A DNA stretch of 9,727 nt, from the NCBI GenBank assembly GCA_001803565.1, contig MHDQ01000263.1, forward strand, positions 1 to 9,727, written 5' to 3'. Origin of the DNA: Nitrospinae bacterium RIFCSPLOWO2_12_FULL_45_22. Lineage in GTDB: Bacteria; 2-12-FULL-45-22. Within the stretch, counting starts at the first letter, position 1. Each line of letters starts with the position of its first letter. The position numbers and the translations under genes were made by a program. This document shows positions 1,268-9,727 of the stretch, in pieces. A model generated the notes under the pieces. That model was given only the letters and a program-made list of their open reading frames with translations. It was not told the origin of the DNA and searched no databases.

Positions 1268-2707
1268 CTAATGCCCTAGATAGGAGATAGAATAATGGGC
1301 TAGCTCTAATATCCGGGCAGGGGTTATGCCAAGTAGGATAGTACCTATGGCAGTAATAACCAGGGCAGCCGCAGAAAAGAAAGGTACTGGTCCATCCAAA
1401 AACTCTTTCTCTGGGTCATACATATACATATAGACTATGATCCGCAGGTAATAGTAAAGGGCTATGGCACTGCCTAATACGCCAATAATAGCCAGACCTA
1501 CATAGCCGCCACTAACCGCAGCGCTAAAGATATAGAACTTTCCAACGAAACCGCCAGTCGGCGGTATACCAGCCAGAGAGAGTAGGAACAGAGACATAGC
1601 CGCACTTAGCATCGGATGTTTATAAGCCAGGCCGCGATAATCGCTAATCGTTAGGTTCTCTTCTTCCTTTTTTTCCACTATTATCACTACCCCAAAGGCC
1701 CCCAGATTCATGAGGCTATATACCAGGAGATAATAGAGAATACTGGAAGAGCCCAGGTCATTACCGGCTACCATAGCTACCAGTATATAACCGGCATGGG
1801 CAATAGCAGAATAGGCCAGCATCCGCTTGATATTTTTCTGATAGATAGCGACAGTATTGCCAAAGATGATGGTAACGGCTGCCAGGAGCCACAGAACCGG
1901 TACCCACTGGCCCTTCAAGGGCTCCAGGGTATAAAAGAATACCCGCAGAAATGCGGCAAAACTAGCTGCCTTCGTACCCACTGCCATAAAAGCCGTTACC
2001 GTAGTAGGAGACCCTTCATACACATCCGGTGTCCACATATGGAAAGGCACTATTGCCACCTTGAAGCCAAATCCTACCAGCAACAGCCCCATCCCGGCTA
2101 AAAATAGGGGGTTCTTGAGGGCTGCTTCCTGAGAGAGGTACTGGGCAATATCTTTAAGGTTGGTATTACCCACTACACCATAAATATTGGCAATGCCATA
2201 GAGTAGAAAGGCAGAAGAAAAAGCCCCCAGGAGAAAATATTTGAAGGCCGATTCATTGGATTTGGGGCTATGGCGCATAAAGCCCGCCAGGATATAAACC
2301 GCCAGGGATAAGATTTCCAGGGCCAGAAAAATGGTTATAAGGTCTGTCCCGCTAGCCATAAACATATAGCCAAAGGTAGCCAGCAAGACCAGGGAATAAT
2401 ACTCCCCTAAATCTATCCCTCCTCGGGTGATATAGTTTATGGATAGTAAGATAGTGAGGGTACAGATGATTAAAAACAGGGCCTTAAAATAGACCGAGAA
2501 ATTGTCTATTGCAACCATGCCATAAAAGGCCTCTTCCCTGAGATCCCATTGCCCCATAGTGATCAGTAATGCCCCAACCGTGCCCAGGACCCCTACGGTG
2601 GCTAATAATACCTTACGGCCACGCCAGGGTAACAGGTCTAAAATAAGTACTATTAGGGCGGTTATTAAGACAATGATCTCTGGTGTTAAAAGCGATAAAT
2701 TTATCAT
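1268..2707 (-). CDS. nuoN: NADH-quinone oxidoreductase subunit N
   Basis: Antiporter-like membrane subunit of complex I, 479 residues, the usual length, with hydrophobic segments throughout consistent with the family's 14 helices. It translocates protons in the membrane arm. Charged residues of the family's proton path are present: Glu131 in ALEILSLA, Lys156 in SAFKYF, Lys216 in GFKVAIVPFH, Lys246 in GTKAAS and Lys390 in GGFVGKFY. The start MINLSLLTPE is typical of NuoN as opposed to NuoL or NuoM. The ATG lies 4 bp after the nuoK stop with no recognisable ribosome site, so translation is probably coupled to nuoK. It is the only one of the three antiporter-like subunits (L, M, N) encoded in this window, and it directly follows nuoK where nuoL would be expected. 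Confidence 0.96.
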   Translation of the reverse strand: MINLSLLTPEIIVLITALIVLILDLLPWRGRKVLLATVGVLGTVGALLITMGQWDLREEAFYGMVAIDNFSVYFKALFLIICTLTILLSINYITRGGIDLGEYYSLVLLATFGYMFMASGTDLITIFLALEILSLAVYILAGFMRHSPKSNESAFKYFLLGAFSSAFLLYGIANIYGVVGNTNLKDIAQYLSQEAALKNPLFLAGMGLLLVGFGFKVAIVPFHMWTPDVYEGSPTTVTAFMAVGTKAASFAAFLRVFFYTLEPLKGQWVPVLWLLAAVTIIFGNTVAIYQKNIKRMLAYSAIAHAGYILVAMVAGNDLGSSSILYYLLVYSLMNLGAFGVVIIVEKKEEENLTISDYRGLAYKHPMLSAAMSLFLLSLAGIPPTGGFVGKFYIFSAAVSGGYVGLAIIGVLGSAIALYYYLRIIVYMYMYDPEKEFLDGPVPFFSAAALVITAIGTILLGITPARILELAHYSISYLGH

Positions 2708-2711
2708 CTGT

Positions 2712-3014
2712 TTAAAATTTCATAATATTAAAGTCATCTATATTAATAGTAGGTTTATTGCGATAGAGGGCAATAAGGATAGCCAGGCCAATGGCCACTT
2801 CAGCCGCTGCGACCGAGATACTCAGCAGGGTATAGACATGCCCCTCCATATTACCTAGATAACGGGAATAGGCAATAAAACTCAGATTCACTCCATTCAT
2901 CATCAACTCAATAGACATTAATACTACTAAGGCATTGCGCCGGGTTAAGACCCCCAGAGTACCCAGGATAAAGAGCATGGCACTGACCAGCAGATAATAG
3001 TGCAGAGGAACCAT
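2712..3014 (-). CDS. nuoK: NADH-quinone oxidoreductase subunit K
   Basis: Small membrane subunit of complex I, 100 residues, standard length, with three predicted transmembrane helices (about residues 5-22, 28-48 and 60-84). The two membrane glutamates of the family are in place: Glu36 in SIELMMN and Glu72 in AAAEVAIG. These connect the quinone site to the antiporter-like subunits through the hydrophilic axis of the membrane arm. An AGGAGG sequence lies about 12 bases upstream of the ATG, somewhat farther than ideal. It starts 16 bp after the nuoJ stop and ends 4 bp before nuoN. The C-terminal tail (about residues 86-100) is polar and faces out of the membrane. Confidence 0.97.
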   Translation of the reverse strand: MVPLHYYLLVSAMLFILGTLGVLTRRNALVVLMSIELMMNGVNLSFIAYSRYLGNMEGHVYTLLSISVAAAEVAIGLAILIALYRNKPTINIDDFNIMKF

Positions 3015-3030: not shown

Positions 3031-3537
3031 CTATTCGTACGGCTTAAGGTGTCTTTTGGACAATATCACGGTACCAATAATAGCTATGAGCAATAAGATC
3101 GAGATCAATTCAAACGGCAGAAGGTATTCTGCAAAGAGTAGTTTACCTATCTCAGTAAGGCTGCCAAAACCCGTCATTACCAGCCCGGGCCTGTTAGGAT
3201 ATGCCTCTGGCAGGGTCTTTACCAGTTCATAAAATACCAGTACTGATAACAATATACCCAGTAACCAGATAAGGTCTTTCCGCTCCTGGAACAAATCTTC
3301 CTCCTTCAGATTGAGCATCATAATCACAAAGAGCATAAGCACCATAATAGCACCGGCATAGATCAATACCTGGATAATGGCAATGAACGAGGCGGTTAAT
3401 AGGGCAAATAGCCCGGCTACACTCAGCAGGGAAAAGATCAGGGCAATAGCGCTATGGATAGGATTCCGCTGGGTAATGACCAGAAAGCCAGGAATTATTG
3501 CCCCTAGCGCAAAGATAACGAACAACAAAAACTCCAT
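3031..3537 (-). CDS. nuoJ: NADH-quinone oxidoreductase subunit J
   Basis: Membrane subunit of complex I, 168 residues, with about five hydrophobic helices. The family signature is at residues 57-76: VLIYAGAIMVLMLFVIMMLN, which contains the conserved Tyr60 and the pi-bulge helix region thought to gate coupling between quinone reduction and proton movement. The RNPIHSA motif near residue 24 is also typical. The ATG follows the nuoI stop codon with no spacer (TAGATG), and AAGGA lies 4 bases upstream inside the end of nuoI, so the two genes are translationally linked. Nothing unusual is seen. Confidence 0.96.
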   Translation of the reverse strand: MEFLLFVIFALGAIIPGFLVITQRNPIHSAIALIFSLLSVAGLFALLTASFIAIIQVLIYAGAIMVLMLFVIMMLNLKEEDLFQERKDLIWLLGILLSVLVFYELVKTLPEAYPNRPGLVMTGFGSLTEIGKLLFAEYLLPFELISILLLIAIIGTVILSKRHLKPYE

Positions 3538-4044
3538 CTAATCCTTGTACCCCCTCTCGGTAGCCATCAGTACATCTTTTTCATAGAGAAAATTTGCCCG
3601 GCTATATTCTGTCAGGGAATATATGCCGCTATCCATCCGGATAGCATCACAGGGACAGGCCTCTACACACAAACCACAAAATACGCAGCGCAATTCATCA
3701 ATCATAAACACGGCTGGATATTTCTCTACGGCAGGGTCTGCGCTCTCTGTCGGCTCGATATAGATGCAGTGGGAGGGGCAGGCCGTGGCACATAACATAC
3801 ATGCCGTACAGCGGGGCATACCATCGTCTTTACGGGTAAGGCGGTGCCGGCCACGCCACCTGGGCGATAGGCCCCATTTTACTTCCGTACGCTCTTCTGG
3901 GTAATAGATAGTAGGGACTTGCTTTATATTGAAGAGGTTCTTAAAGAAGTGCCTGGAAGTAACCAGAAGACCCCGGATTATCTCAGGGATATATATCTTT
4001 TCTAAGAAACCCTGTCCATTATTATCCTTCACCACCATAGCCAT
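3538..4044 (-). CDS. nuoI: NADH-quinone oxidoreductase subunit I (two [4Fe-4S] clusters)
   Basis: Peripheral-arm ferredoxin-like subunit, 168 residues, that passes electrons from NuoG through clusters N6a and N6b toward N2 near the quinone site. Two CxxCxxCxxxC motifs are clear: Cys79, 82, 85, 89 and Cys120, 123, 126, 130. Each is followed by Pro as expected. Two extra cysteines (Cys93 and Cys132) lie next to the motifs; I believe similar variants occur in other bacterial NuoI. The N-terminal amphipathic segment (about residues 18-40) matches the helix that lies along the membrane surface. AGGAG lies 8 bases before the chosen ATG. An ATG two codons downstream (4038) is also possible. The gene lies 26 bp after nuoH and abuts nuoJ. 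Confidence 0.96.
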   Translation of the reverse strand: MAMVVKDNNGQGFLEKIYIPEIIRGLLVTSRHFFKNLFNIKQVPTIYYPEERTEVKWGLSPRWRGRHRLTRKDDGMPRCTACMLCATACPSHCIYIEPTESADPAVEKYPAVFMIDELRCVFCGLCVEACPCDAIRMDSGIYSLTEYSRANFLYEKDVLMATERGYKD

Positions 4045-4070: not shown

Positions 4071-5153
4071 CTATGCTAAGGCCAGAACAATAAGCCCGGT
4101 AATAAATATATTAGCTAAAGTTAATGGAAACAGATATTTCCAGCCCAGGCGCATGAGCTGATCGTAGCGGAACCGGGGCAGCGTCCACCTTACCAGCAAA
4201 AGGAACCAGCAGAAAAAGACTACTTTTAACCCGAAAGCTGCTACCTGCAACACTACTACTAACAAGTGGGGCAAAGCCAGAGAAAAACCGCCAGGTAAAT
4301 GAAACCCATCTGCCATAAGGAAAGGTATCTGCCAGCCGCCAAAAAATAGCGTGGTAAGCAGGGCCGAGGCAACCACTATATCGGCAAACTCGGCCAGGAA
4401 AAACATCCCGAACCTCATACCACTATATTCCAGAAAATAGCCAATAATCTCTGACTCGCCTTCGGGCAGATCAAATGGTGTCCGTTTATTCTCTGCAATA
4501 GCCGCACAGAGAAACAAAAAGAAGGCCGCGGGCTGTACTACTATTCCCCATTGGGGTAACCAACCGCCTATCAGATATCCCTGTTGTCGGACCAGGTCAT
4601 CTAACTCCACGGTCCCATAAATCATCAGTAAACCCACAATAGATAGTCCCATGGCAATCTCGTAAGAGATCATCTGGGCAGCAGCGCGTAACCCCCCTAA
4701 GAGAGAGTAGTTATTATGGGAAGACCAACCCCCCAGCATCACCCCATAAATAGCCAGAGAGGCGATAGAGAAGATAAATATGATCCCCACACTCAAGTCC
4801 GCCACCTGGAGGTTGATCTCTCGCCCACCTACCCGCAAGATATCACCGAAAGGTATTACCGCATAGGTAACTAATGCAGGGAACATAGCCACTGCCGGGG
4901 CCAGGCTATGGATAGCTTTATTGGCTCGGGCTGGGATAAAATCTTCCTTGGTAATCAGCTTGATCCCATCGGCTATTGGGTGGAGCAAGCCGTAAAAGGT
5001 AAACCCAAATATATTGGCCCGGTTAGGCCCGATCCGGTCCTGCATCAGGGCGCTCTGTTTCCGTTCTGCCCAGGTCAGTAGCCCAGCCAGGTTCATGATC
5101 ATGCCCAGTACCAGGGCTAGCTTAATCAATATTATCAATGCATCCAGGATCAT
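4071..5153 (-). CDS. nuoH: NADH-quinone oxidoreductase subunit H
   Basis: Membrane subunit that forms most of the quinone chamber where the peripheral arm meets the membrane arm; 360 residues, slightly longer than the 325-350 common in the family. Signatures: WAERKQSALMQDRIGPNR at 28-45, and RTPFDLPEGESEIIGYFLEY at 224-243, whose acidic residues form the coupling loop beside the quinone site. WTLPRFRYDQLM follows near the C-terminus. About eight hydrophobic helices are visible. AAGGA lies 6 bases before the ATG, so the start is sound. Unlike its neighbours, it is preceded by a 140 bp non-coding gap containing a hairpin and repeat units, so its expression may be partly separate from nuoG. Confidence 0.97.
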   Translation of the reverse strand: MILDALIILIKLALVLGMIMNLAGLLTWAERKQSALMQDRIGPNRANIFGFTFYGLLHPIADGIKLITKEDFIPARANKAIHSLAPAVAMFPALVTYAVIPFGDILRVGGREINLQVADLSVGIIFIFSIASLAIYGVMLGGWSSHNNYSLLGGLRAAAQMISYEIAMGLSIVGLLMIYGTVELDDLVRQQGYLIGGWLPQWGIVVQPAAFFLFLCAAIAENKRTPFDLPEGESEIIGYFLEYSGMRFGMFFLAEFADIVVASALLTTLFFGGWQIPFLMADGFHLPGGFSLALPHLLVVVLQVAAFGLKVVFFCWFLLLVRWTLPRFRYDQLMRLGWKYLFPLTLANIFITGLIVLALA

Positions 5154-5293: not shown

Positions 5294-6919
5294 TTACGTT
5301 TGGATGCCTTTGTCCCCTATCTTCTCATAATCCAGGCCATGGTAGCGGGGTATTTCGGCTGCGATCTGGCGCATAATTTCTGCTGGCGTATGTTCTTGCC
5401 AGTCGTAACCCATAGCCCGGGCCACTCTACCAAGGATAACCTCATTAGCCAGAGACTCAGGCCGGGGTTGCATGGCCTTAAAGACCCGCTGTACCCGGCC
5501 CTTGTAATTAATAAAGGTGCCATCTACCTCAGCAAAGGTCGCACTGGGCAGGATGATATGGGCCCATTGGCAGCTAGCAGTAAAATTACTGGTCTGAATA
5601 ATCAGCAGCTCCAGGCTAGCTAATGCCTCATTGACCTGTTCGTTATCATAGCTTTCCGTTGGCTCTGCACCCATTATCCATAATCCCTTCAGGGGGTTAG
5701 CCGGGCTGAGCATCTCGGCAGCCCCTATACCACCGGCTCCTGGGCCTATTTCCAGGTCTATTGCCCCACGAGTATTAGGGGTCTTATCCTCACGGATCAA
5801 GAAATCATCCCCGTATCCGGTCAGGCCCTTGAGGAAGTCCAGGTTAGGGGTCTCCAGAACCTCATGAGCGAACTTTTTAAATAGATAATTAGCCTCATTG
5901 GTAGCCTTAGAAGATGCCAGGGCGCCTATTCTCTGCGGACCATATTCGGTCAGTATCTTCTGGACTCTATTTTTAATCTCGTTTATAGCCCGCTCCCAGC
6001 TCACCAGCACCAACTGCCCATCCTGACGGATATGGGGCTGCAAGACCCGGTTCTCATTGACGAGCTTGTAGCTTAGTCTCCCTTCGTCACAGAGCCAGCA
6101 GTCATTCACTTCAGGATTCTCCTTTGGCTTAAGGCGATATATCTGGGCCCGCTGTAAGTTAACATAATGTTTTTTGTTTATACAGATAAAAATATTGCAA
6201 CCATTGGCACACCCTGGGCAGACAGAGGGTGTAGAATACAAGAACCAGGGCCTTATCTTGAAGCGAAAATCCTTACTGGTCAATGCCCCTACCGGGCAAA
6301 TATCTACCGTATTGATTGAGTAGGGGTTATCGAGTTGTTGTCCGGGAAAGGTGGTTATTTGAGAATGATTGCCCCGGTTCTTGGTCCCTATTTCCGGCTG
6401 TTTAGCAATCTCTATACAGAAACGGATGCAGCGGGTACAGAGGATACATCGCTCGGCATCAAATACTATATGGGGGCCGATAGCTACCGCTTTGGGTCGC
6501 TTGATCTTCTCTTCTTTCGCAAAGCGGCTCTTATGCTGGCCAAATTCCATCATATAGAAATCTTGCAGGCCGCACTCACCTGCCTGATCACAGATAGGGC
6601 AATCTATAGGGTGATTGAGGAGCAAAAATTCTAACTGGGCCCGCTGTGCCCTTATGGCCTTAGATGAGTCGGTAGATACTATCATACCCTCTTCTACTGG
6701 CGTGCGGCAGGCGGGCTGCAGCTTGGGCTGGCCCTGGATTTCTACCAGGCACATGCGGCAGCAACCGGCAATGCTAAGCTTGGGATGGTAACAATAATGA
6801 GGGATGAAGATGCCGATACTCCTGGCTGCCTCTAAAATAACAGTACCATCCTCTGCCTGTAAGGCCTGACCGTTTATGGTAAGATTCTTCACCTCTATTT
6901 CCTGGTTTCTGGCAGACAT
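5294..6919 (-). CDS. nuoG: NADH-quinone oxidoreductase subunit G, compact form
   Basis: Iron-sulfur subunit of the NADH module, carrying electrons from NuoF toward NuoI. Cluster ligands in order, numbered from the ATG at 6919: N1b [2Fe-2S] Cys43, 54, 57, 71; N5 His103, Cys107, 110, 116; N4 Cys158, 161, 164, 208; extra cluster N7 Cys234, 237, 241 and Cys274 or 277. A molybdopterin-oxidoreductase-like domain follows. Its start (to about 360) and its end (about 410-510, with LPSATFAEVDGTF and GRVQR) are recognisable, but the long middle is reduced to about 50 residues. The total is 541 residues against roughly 700-900 in many bacteria. No frameshift is visible. The ATG overlaps nuoF by 25 bp and has no ribosome site. 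A GTG at 6892, with AGGA 7 bases upstream, gives a more usual N-terminus and may be the true start. Confidence 0.95.
   Translation of the reverse strand: MSARNQEIEVKNLTINGQALQAEDGTVILEAARSIGIFIPHYCYHPKLSIAGCCRMCLVEIQGQPKLQPACRTPVEEGMIVSTDSSKAIRAQRAQLEFLLLNHPIDCPICDQAGECGLQDFYMMEFGQHKSRFAKEEKIKRPKAVAIGPHIVFDAERCILCTRCIRFCIEIAKQPEIGTKNRGNHSQITTFPGQQLDNPYSINTVDICPVGALTSKDFRFKIRPWFLYSTPSVCPGCANGCNIFICINKKHYVNLQRAQIYRLKPKENPEVNDCWLCDEGRLSYKLVNENRVLQPHIRQDGQLVLVSWERAINEIKNRVQKILTEYGPQRIGALASSKATNEANYLFKKFAHEVLETPNLDFLKGLTGYGDDFLIREDKTPNTRGAIDLEIGPGAGGIGAAEMLSPANPLKGLWIMGAEPTESYDNEQVNEALASLELLIIQTSNFTASCQWAHIILPSATFAEVDGTFINYKGRVQRVFKAMQPRPESLANEVILGRVARAMGYDWQEHTPAEIMRQIAAEIPRYHGLDYEKIGDKGIQT
6890..6903 (-). 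promoter_or_regulatory. Alternative nuoG ribosome site and GTG start
   Basis: AGGA at 6903-6900 precedes GTG at 6892-6890 by 7 bases. The nuoF stop TAG (6897-6895) lies between them, so the genes would be coupled by a stop-start arrangement without overlap. The protein would begin VKNLTING (initiator read as Met), matching the usual NuoG start just before the first ferredoxin strand. The upstream ATG at 6919 has only A/T-rich sequence before it. Confidence 0.55.
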
Positions 6920-8166
6920 TGTTTATTAGTCAGGTGATAATCGAATTCATCACGGTATTTTTTTACCGCTGGCCCAATCGCCATAGCCGCAGCATCGCCC
7001 AGGGGACAGATGGCATTACCCATGATATTGTCACAGATCTCTATCAATAAGTCCGTATCACCAGGTCTACCATGCCCTTCTTCTATATGGTGCAAGATAT
7101 TCTCCAGCCATCCTGTACCTTCCCGGCAGGGGGTACATTGGCCACAGGACTCATGGTGGTAAAAATTAGCCAGGATCAAGGTCGAGCGGACAATACACAT
7201 AGTATGGTCCAGGACAATTATACCGGCTGAGCCTAGCATAGTCCCTGCCTTGGCCAGAGAATCAAAATCCATATTTACCTGTATCTCATCAGGTCTAAGG
7301 ATAGGCGTAGAAGAGCCACCGGGTATAACCCCTTTCAGTTGCCTCCCCTCGAACAGTCCACCAGCATGGTCAAAGATGATCTCGGGCAAGGGTGTACCCA
7401 TGGGGAGTTCATATACCCCGGGACGTTTTACCGGGCCACTGACACAATAGAGCTTAGGGCCATGGTTCTTATCTGTCCCTATGCTGGTATACCATTCCAC
7501 CCCTCGTTCAATGATATGAGGAACATTGGCTAAAGTCTCAACATTATTGATAGTAGTGGGGCAACCAAAGAGTCCTCGATTTGCCGGGAAAGGTGGCCGG
7601 ATGCGGGGCCAACCTTTCTTACCTTCGATAGATTCCATGAGTGAGGTCTCTTCTCCGCAGATATAAGCACCAGCACCAATAGGTAATAGAATGTCCAGGC
7701 TATAGTATTTACCCATAATATTCTGACCTAAGAAATTATGCTCATAAGCCTCCCGGATAGCAGCCTCGCAGCGCTGGATAGCTAGATTGAACTCACCCCG
7801 GATATAGAGATATGCCTGCTGTGCACCAATAGCATACGAAGCTATTATGATGCCTTCCAGCAGTTGGTGAGGGTCTTTCTCTAAGATAACCCGGTCTTTG
7901 AATGTACCGGGTTCGCCTTCATCGGCATTACAGATAAGATATTTCGGCCTCTCAGTCCCCTTGGGCATAAAACTCCATTTTACCCCGGCAGGAAACCCCG
8001 CCCCGCCCCGCCCCCGCAGCCCCGACCTCTTTACTATATCAATAATATCCTCGGGGCTATATTCTCCCAGGGCCTTAGCCAGGGCCTTATAGCCACCGGT
8101 AGCCCGATAAGTCTCTATCTTATGCGAATCGGGCAGATGGATATTTTTAGTAAGTAGCTTTTCCAT
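6895..8166 (-). CDS. nuoF: NADH-quinone oxidoreductase subunit F (NADH- and FMN-binding)
   Basis: The entry point for NADH electrons in complex I: it binds NADH and FMN and passes electrons to cluster N3. It has 423 residues, full length. GRGGAGFP at 52-59 is the glycine-rich NADH loop, and NADEGEPGTFKDR at 80-92 belongs to the FMN site. GAGAYICGEETSL at 164-176 is also conserved. N3 [4Fe-4S] ligands are Cys341, 344, 347 and Cys387 (in ICPLGD). It has no N-terminal thioredoxin-like extension and no C-terminal ferredoxin domain, which argues for complex I over NAD-dependent hydrogenase or formate dehydrogenase. It begins 2 bp after the nuoCD stop with only a weak ribosome site, suggesting translational coupling. 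nuoE, its usual upstream neighbour, is absent here. Codons 49-57 form an unusual G-rich tract. Confidence 0.97.
   Translation of the reverse strand: MEKLLTKNIHLPDSHKIETYRATGGYKALAKALGEYSPEDIIDIVKRSGLRGRGGAGFPAGVKWSFMPKGTERPKYLICNADEGEPGTFKDRVILEKDPHQLLEGIIIASYAIGAQQAYLYIRGEFNLAIQRCEAAIREAYEHNFLGQNIMGKYYSLDILLPIGAGAYICGEETSLMESIEGKKGWPRIRPPFPANRGLFGCPTTINNVETLANVPHIIERGVEWYTSIGTDKNHGPKLYCVSGPVKRPGVYELPMGTPLPEIIFDHAGGLFEGRQLKGVIPGGSSTPILRPDEIQVNMDFDSLAKAGTMLGSAGIIVLDHTMCIVRSTLILANFYHHESCGQCTPCREGTGWLENILHHIEEGHGRPGDTDLLIEICDNIMGNAICPLGDAAAMAIGPAVKKYRDEFDYHLTNKQCLPETRK
7996..8023 (-). other. Putative G-quadruplex motif in the nuoF sense strand
   Basis: On the minus strand (the nuoF mRNA strand) this 28-base stretch has five G-runs of 4 or 5, separated by loops of 4, 1, 1 and 1 bases. 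That satisfies the canonical four-tract G-quadruplex pattern with short loops, which usually fold stably. It encodes Gly49 to Gly57, including the NADH-binding loop, using GGG for four of the five glycines. The surrounding gene is close to balanced in GC, so the tract stands out. Confidence 0.7.
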
Positions 8167-8168
8167 AG

Positions 8169-9727
8169 CTACCGATCATTCTCTCCGCCGATCATATTTA
8201 TCATACCAAAGGTAGCTATAATGTCGGCCACTAACCCGCCCTGGATCATCTTGCTCATCCCTTGCATAAGGGCAAAGCAAGGGGGCCGACAGCGGCACTT
8301 GTATGGTTTGCCCGCACCATCACTAACAATATAGAACCCCAGTTCACCATTACCACCCTCAACCGGAAAATAGGCCTCTCCGGGGGGTGGTTTGATTCCT
8401 TCAAAGATGATCTTGAAATGGTGCATCAGGCCCTCAATAGAGTTATATACTTGTTCTTTCGGCGGTAAAATCACCCTTACATCGTCTAAATTGACCGGGC
8501 CCGGTGGTATCTGGTCCAGGGCCTGTTCGATGATCCGGATACTCTGGCGCATCTCCTCCATCCGTACTAGATAGCGGTCGTAATTATCCCCCTTAGTGCC
8601 CAGGGGTACTTCAAAATCCATCCGGTCATAAACCAGATAAGGCTGTGCCTTCCGCACATCATAACATATGCCGGTAGAGCGTAAGCAAGGGCCAGTAAAG
8701 GCCAAAGCTATGGCATCTTCAGCGGATATATAGCCGGTGCCCCGCATCCGGTCATAAAATATCCGGTTCTTGCTCAAAAGCTTATCTACATCGTTAATGG
8801 CCTTTCGGGCATCCTGCAGCGCCTGGCGGCATTTCTCATCAAACTTTTCCGGCAAATCAAAGGCCCAACCGCCTATCCGGCCACAACTGGGCGTAACACC
8901 CCGACCACCACCTACTTCTTCTATAAGCTTATAAAGGACCTCTCGGGCCTCAATAAAATAGAAAAATACGGTAAAGGCCCCTAACTCCATGGCATTAGCA
9001 GCAATACAGGTCAGGTGATCGGTGAGCCGGGATATCTCACTCATGATTACCCGAATATATTTACACCGTTCGGTTATCTCCACACCAAAGAGCTTCTCGA
9101 CAGTCATGATATAGCCTACATTATTGATCAGGGGTGAGACATAGTTTAGTCGGTCGGTATAAGGGATGCATTGGGTATAGGTGGCGTTCTCACATTCCTT
9201 CTCAAAGCCCCGGTGCAGATACCCCATCTCGACCTCAGAATTGACTATACGCTCGCCATCCAGCTCCAGTATAAGATGAATAATCCCATGCATGGCCGGA
9301 TGGGCCGGTCCCATATGAAGGAATAGGTGCTGGGTCTCTAAATCTTCTGCCTTGGCCTCAGGCCGGAATATCCTGGGCTGGTAAATAATCCGATCAATGG
9401 GCTGCTGTTTATCTTTAGGATAGTCTTTACGTAAGGGGTGCCCTTCAAACTGGTCATAGAGCAGGATGCGGCGCAAATCTGGATGGTTATTAAATTCTAT
9501 GCCATAAAAGTCATAGACCTCGCGCTCAAACCAATTAGCTGCTTGCCAAACCGGTGTTAGGGAGTCTATCCGGCAATCTTCTTCTGGCACCGGGGCCTTT
9601 ATCCTTAGCCGGTGATTATGCTGAAGGGAATAGAGGTGATAGGCTATCTCAAAGCGGGGGTTACGGCCCAAATAATCTACTGCGGTCAGGTCCATCATAA
9701 AATTATAAGCTAATGCCGGCTCATCCC
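8169..9727 (-). CDS. nuoCD: NADH-quinone oxidoreductase subunit C/D fusion (5' end outside window)
   Basis: Fused peripheral-arm subunits C and D, linking the iron-sulfur chain to the quinone site. The open frame runs through the right edge: residues DEPALAYNF precede the ATG at 9698 in frame, so that ATG is internal (MMDLTAVDY is a core NuoC strand) and the true start lies beyond the window. Counting from 9698, the NuoC domain covers about 1-95, ending in EGHPLRKDYP. A short linker follows, and NuoD runs from about 122 to 509, ending in GGENDR. Quinone-site residues are His137 in GPAHPAMHG and Tyr186 in DRLNY (equivalents of Thermus Nqo4 His38 and Tyr87). GPAHP replaces the common GPQHP. C-D fusion is known from E. 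coli and others. The gene ends 2 bp before nuoF. Confidence 0.96.
   Translation of the reverse strand, partial: DEPALAYNFMMDLTAVDYLGRNPRFEIAYHLYSLQHNHRLRIKAPVPEEDCRIDSLTPVWQAANWFEREVYDFYGIEFNNHPDLRRILLYDQFEGHPLRKDYPKDKQQPIDRIIYQPRIFRPEAKAEDLETQHLFLHMGPAHPAMHGIIHLILELDGERIVNSEVEMGYLHRGFEKECENATYTQCIPYTDRLNYVSPLINNVGYIMTVEKLFGVEITERCKYIRVIMSEISRLTDHLTCIAANAMELGAFTVFFYFIEAREVLYKLIEEVGGGRGVTPSCGRIGGWAFDLPEKFDEKCRQALQDARKAINDVDKLLSKNRIFYDRMRGTGYISAEDAIALAFTGPCLRSTGICYDVRKAQPYLVYDRMDFEVPLGTKGDNYDRYLVRMEEMRQSIRIIEQALDQIPPGPVNLDDVRVILPPKEQVYNSIEGLMHHFKIIFEGIKPPPGEAYFPVEGGNGELGFYIVSDGAGKPYKCRCRPPCFALMQGMSKMIQGGLVADIIATFGMINMIGGENDR

Follow-up and report, generated by a model that had tools for sequence, protein, structure and literature searches.

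The canonical nuoA-N operon, as found in E. coli, in Geobacter and in G001, the one genome in our comparison set that shares the phylum of the DNA studied here, carries nuoK, nuoL, nuoM and nuoN in succession, and nuoD, nuoE and nuoF likewise. Complex I may also be encoded by split sets, in which the Nuo subunits of one complex are distributed over several clusters, and both split and single-cluster forms occur in most clades (PMC12361115). Studies cited in PMC9271201 describe deletion mutants without NuoL, or without NuoL and NuoM, that translocate about 1 instead of 2 H+/e-, and according to these citations the complex can remain stable after the loss of L or of both subunits.

The stretch of DNA analyzed here, referred to as the window, is the entire contig C263 (9727 nt) of a metagenome bin that comprises 321 contigs and 3.67 Mb and is 85% complete with 1.3% contamination. 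Its nuo genes encode the same subunits as the canonical operon and are orthologous to them by profile, but nuoK is adjacent to nuoN and nuoD to nuoF, while nuoE, nuoL and nuoM form a separate operon. In this the window resembles the known split sets. It differs from them in the joint relocation of E, L and M, a cut that we found in no other genome examined. With a probability of roughly 0.88, we regard the window as part of a split and rearranged nuo set that encodes an ordinary complex I with three antiporter-type subunits.

Organization of the window

All of the nuo genes in the window lie on the minus strand, in the order nuoCD, F, G, H, I, J, K, N. The nuoCD fusion (8169-9725) has lost its 5′ end at the end of the contig, which falls within nuoC, so that nuoA and nuoB, if they belong to this operon, could only sit past base 9727. 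The best NCBIfam match of the NuoCD protein, a NuoBCD fusion, was considered and set aside, as only the C-D part is covered and the CD protein of G095 has no NuoB match either. nuoF (6895-8166, 423 aa) begins straight after nuoCD with a gap of 2 bp, and nuoE is absent from this position, a point that the earlier note on this DNA had missed. nuoG (5294-6919, 541 aa) encodes a short form in which part of the molybdopterin domain is absent; NuoG is short in most relatives too, at about 516-574 aa. There follow nuoH (4071-5153, 360 aa), nuoI (3538-4044, 168 aa) and nuoJ (3031-3537, 168 aa), the last two recognized by profile matches, and then nuoK (2712-3014, 100 aa, NCBIfam), which ends in a TAA codon at 2714-2712. 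nuoN (1268-2707, 479 aa) starts with the ATG at 2707 and scores 468 bits against TIGR01770 (NCBIfam), for which the cut-off is 333. The 4 bp that separate the nuoK stop from the nuoN start (2708-2711) mark the usual place of nuoL-nuoM, and within the window we found no antiporter-type gene besides nuoN. Downstream of nuoN, positions 812-1201 and 409-711 encode a putative carbonic anhydrase (Pro_CA_2) and a protein with the antibiotic-biosynthesis-monooxygenase fold.

The glutamate and lysine residues of the antiporter-type subunits have functional roles that are well established for complex I. Over its length, NuoN of the window aligns with solved NuoN/NdhB chains, and it keeps the Glu in ALEIL and the Lys residues in GFKVAIVPFH, GTKAA and FVGKF. 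The earlier note had correctly described the 4 bp junction, the solitary status of nuoN among antiporter-like genes in the window and the intact residues of its proton path.

The missing genes are elsewhere in the genome

The earlier note had offered two readings of the junction: either L and M are encoded elsewhere in the genome, or the membrane arm that the organism makes is reduced and has a single antiporter subunit. It had proposed a Proton_antipo_M profile search of the full genome and a comparison of gene order among relatives. The search returned eight genes, namely one nuoL and one nuoM on contig C60, a second nuoL and nuoM on contig C251, nuoN in the window and three Mrp-type genes on C130, where they lie amid Mrp-like small subunits. 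With two nuoL and two nuoM genes, the result points to a split operon, and it bears out the first of the two readings. A reduced complex with a single antiporter subunit would call for a genome without nuoL and nuoM; instead this genome has both in another nuo cluster, which is the observation that the note itself had named as refuting the reduced arm.

On C60, a contig of 7.9 kb, nuoE, nuoL and nuoM form a tight operon in which all three genes are intact, with an overlap of 4 bp (-4) between E and L and a spacing of +17 bp between L and M. These are precisely the genes absent between nuoCD and nuoN of the window, and together the two contigs cover C to N. The K-N junction thus occurs in the same assembly as intact E, L and M genes. 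Full-length alignments were obtained for the C60 proteins with solved NuoL and NuoM, and NuoL keeps its C-terminal lateral-helix region. The Glu of TM5 and the Lys motifs (Glu in M) are kept in NuoN of the window and in NuoL and NuoM of C60. Three antiporter-type subunits with these conserved residues are therefore present in the assembly, and so is the complete NADH-input module, with F and G in the window and E on C60. For the quinone module, CD, H and I are in the window, which ends within nuoC, and the sole nuoB of the assembly is on C251; for the small membrane subunits, J and K are in the window, and the sole nuoA is also on C251.

C60 and the window have no physical link in the assembly. 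C60, C263 and C251 match the rest of the bin in GC content and tetranucleotides, and the correlation of codon usage with the window genes is 0.866 for C60, which contributes only three genes, versus 0.965 for C251. Downstream of nuoM on C60 there are 3.6 kb of unrelated genes, so that here L-M does not lie directly before A-B-C-D, unlike the arrangement in G095. As both contig ends are open downstream of nuoN, C60 might even follow that gene within a few kb. In phylogenetic trees, L and M of C251 fall into a clade (100/100) with G001 and the second set of G095, which excludes their counterparts on C60; the C60 genes are thus no recent copies of those on C251. The tree places C60 L and M closest to G074, a genome with a window-type NuoH, although weakly (56/26), and does not group them with L and M of the orthologous operon in G095. 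Concatenated trees give no firm placement of C60 L/M with H, J, K and N of the window. Among the 30 best NuoE matches, no other genome has nuoE directly before nuoL.

Gene order in relatives

Among about 80 named loci with NuoN relatives, nuoN follows nuoM wherever the upstream sequence suffices, with the exception of one solitary nuoN (L045). In this locus, from an SAR324 bacterium, the 10 kb flanking nuoN on each side contain no other recognized nuo gene. Among the best 30 from a second set of genomes, K is followed by N only in the window and in G095 and G233, two closed genomes that belong to a single genus of another lineage. The gene-order comparison thus shows that the junction recurs, and in these two genomes the operon that contains it is headed by nuoL-nuoM.

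The cluster most closely related to that of the window is the one in G095 and G233, the encoded proteins being 66% (NuoH), 66% (CD), 60% (F), 59% (K) and about 51-53% (N) identical. In the closed genome of G095 it reads L-M-A-CD-E-F-H-J-K-N, and in G233 it is partly interrupted. The two clusters share orthologous H, CD, F, K and N genes, the K-N adjacency and a short NuoG with the window, but in them L-M heads the same operon, E remains between D and F, and nuoG is remote, in G095 at a distance of about 1.88 Mb on the same chromosome. Both genomes carry tandem membrane-arm sets, L-M-A-CD-E-F-H-J-K-N and then J-K-L-M-N (G095, L151 3474-19899 and L157; G233, L152/L158).

Other genomes with a window-type NuoH vary in the degree to which the set is dispersed. 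In G074 one contig carries A-B-C-D-G-H and another E-F-J-K-L-M-N; in G344 the A-B-C-D-G-H contig is separate from its L-M-N; G357, G098 and G215 have A-I or B-I with J-N not alongside; and in G058 and G045 the nuo set is still in one place. The window and C60 together fit the definition of a split set, the subunits of a single complex being encoded by more than one cluster within a genome, and G074, G344 and G095 are analogues. A separate peculiarity was seen in G002, a bin that is 59% complete, where the roughly 1 kb between J-K-L and nuoN (L153:8145-12551) contains no more than a short NuoM-like fragment, so that nuoM is possibly truncated or missing.

A second nuo cluster without nuoN

C251 carries the cluster A-B-C-D-H-I-J-K-L-M, without nuoN and without E, F and G (L009:7355-16010, L093:530-6758). 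Its K-L-M run is orthologous with those of G001 (73-76% identity) and of the second set in G095, and in G001 the corresponding cluster continues I-J-K-L-M-N. The genes that follow nuoM on C251, after about 500 bp, encode an ORF6N protein, type I specificity subunits and the two Hachiman proteins HamA and HamB; a search for a nuoN remnant downstream of this nuoM found none. The only nuoN of the assembly, which is 85% complete, is the window copy. This protein is only 49% identical to NuoN of G001 and is therefore not the C251-type nuoN relocated. The latter must therefore have been lost, lie in the unassembled part or have been replaced by sharing. Antiporter genes number nine in G095 and G233, with two L/M/N sets and three of the Mrp type, versus eight here, and the complement of the window genome equals theirs minus one nuoN. 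The window NuoN may conceivably be shared by two variants of complex I, one of the NADH type encoded by the window and C60 and another without E, F and G encoded by C251, the nuoN of C251 having been lost beside the defence locus. We consider this unlikely, and a nuoN in the unassembled 15% accounts for the gap on C251 equally well. If the sharing were true, an antiporter subunit common to two complexes would be unusual.

Alternative explanations for the junction

That NuoN is the sole antiporter subunit of a truly reduced complex I with a lower proton yield would agree with an operon in which N follows K with neither L nor M between them, and the work cited in PMC9271201 suggests that forms without L, or without L and M, can be stable at about 1 H+/e-. 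However, the same genome has L and M genes beside nuoE, and the orthologous K-N operon of the closed genomes is headed by L-M. As a claim about gene content the reduced complex is already refuted, and as an account of the complex that is made we hold it to be highly improbable. Less probable still is an assembly artefact at 2705-2714, either the loss of L-M or a wrong join between two contigs. The source is a fragmented bin, but inspection of the K-N junction for signs of misassembly revealed none, both frames being intact, the spacing clean and the composition uniform. Moreover, the same adjacency recurs in two closed genomes that were assembled independently, and the intact E-L-M operon accounts for the absent genes.

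Another possibility is that L and M of the window complex are borrowed from C251, where both are intact, while E-L-M of C60 serves something else or both complexes. Sequence cannot prove which L/M pair is used by the window complex. Nevertheless, the K-L-M genes of C251 are a full run of their own type, and C60 complements the window exactly. Because C251 has its own L and M, the pair on C60 is free for the window complex, and we judge borrowing to be very unlikely.

The reading that we prefer, an ordinary complex I encoded by a split set, would operate as follows. The window operon would supply the fused C-D protein and F, G, H, I, J, K and N, the C60 operon would contribute E, L and M to the same complex, and A and B would be encoded past the contig end. 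These products would join into a complex in which NADH enters via E/F/G and electrons pass to quinone at D/B/H, while proton pumping falls to N, M and L, the three antiporter-type subunits of a full-length membrane arm.

Viewed as a whole, this is ordinary biology with a rare gene order, split nuo clusters having already been reported as common. The results remove a false lead, in that the K-N junction does not imply a complex I with one antiporter subunit, and the proton yield is therefore not to be inferred from operon order. They also bear on the automatic classification of complex I as incomplete in fragmented metagenome bins. In this clade nuo gene order is loose, and E and L-M move as units.
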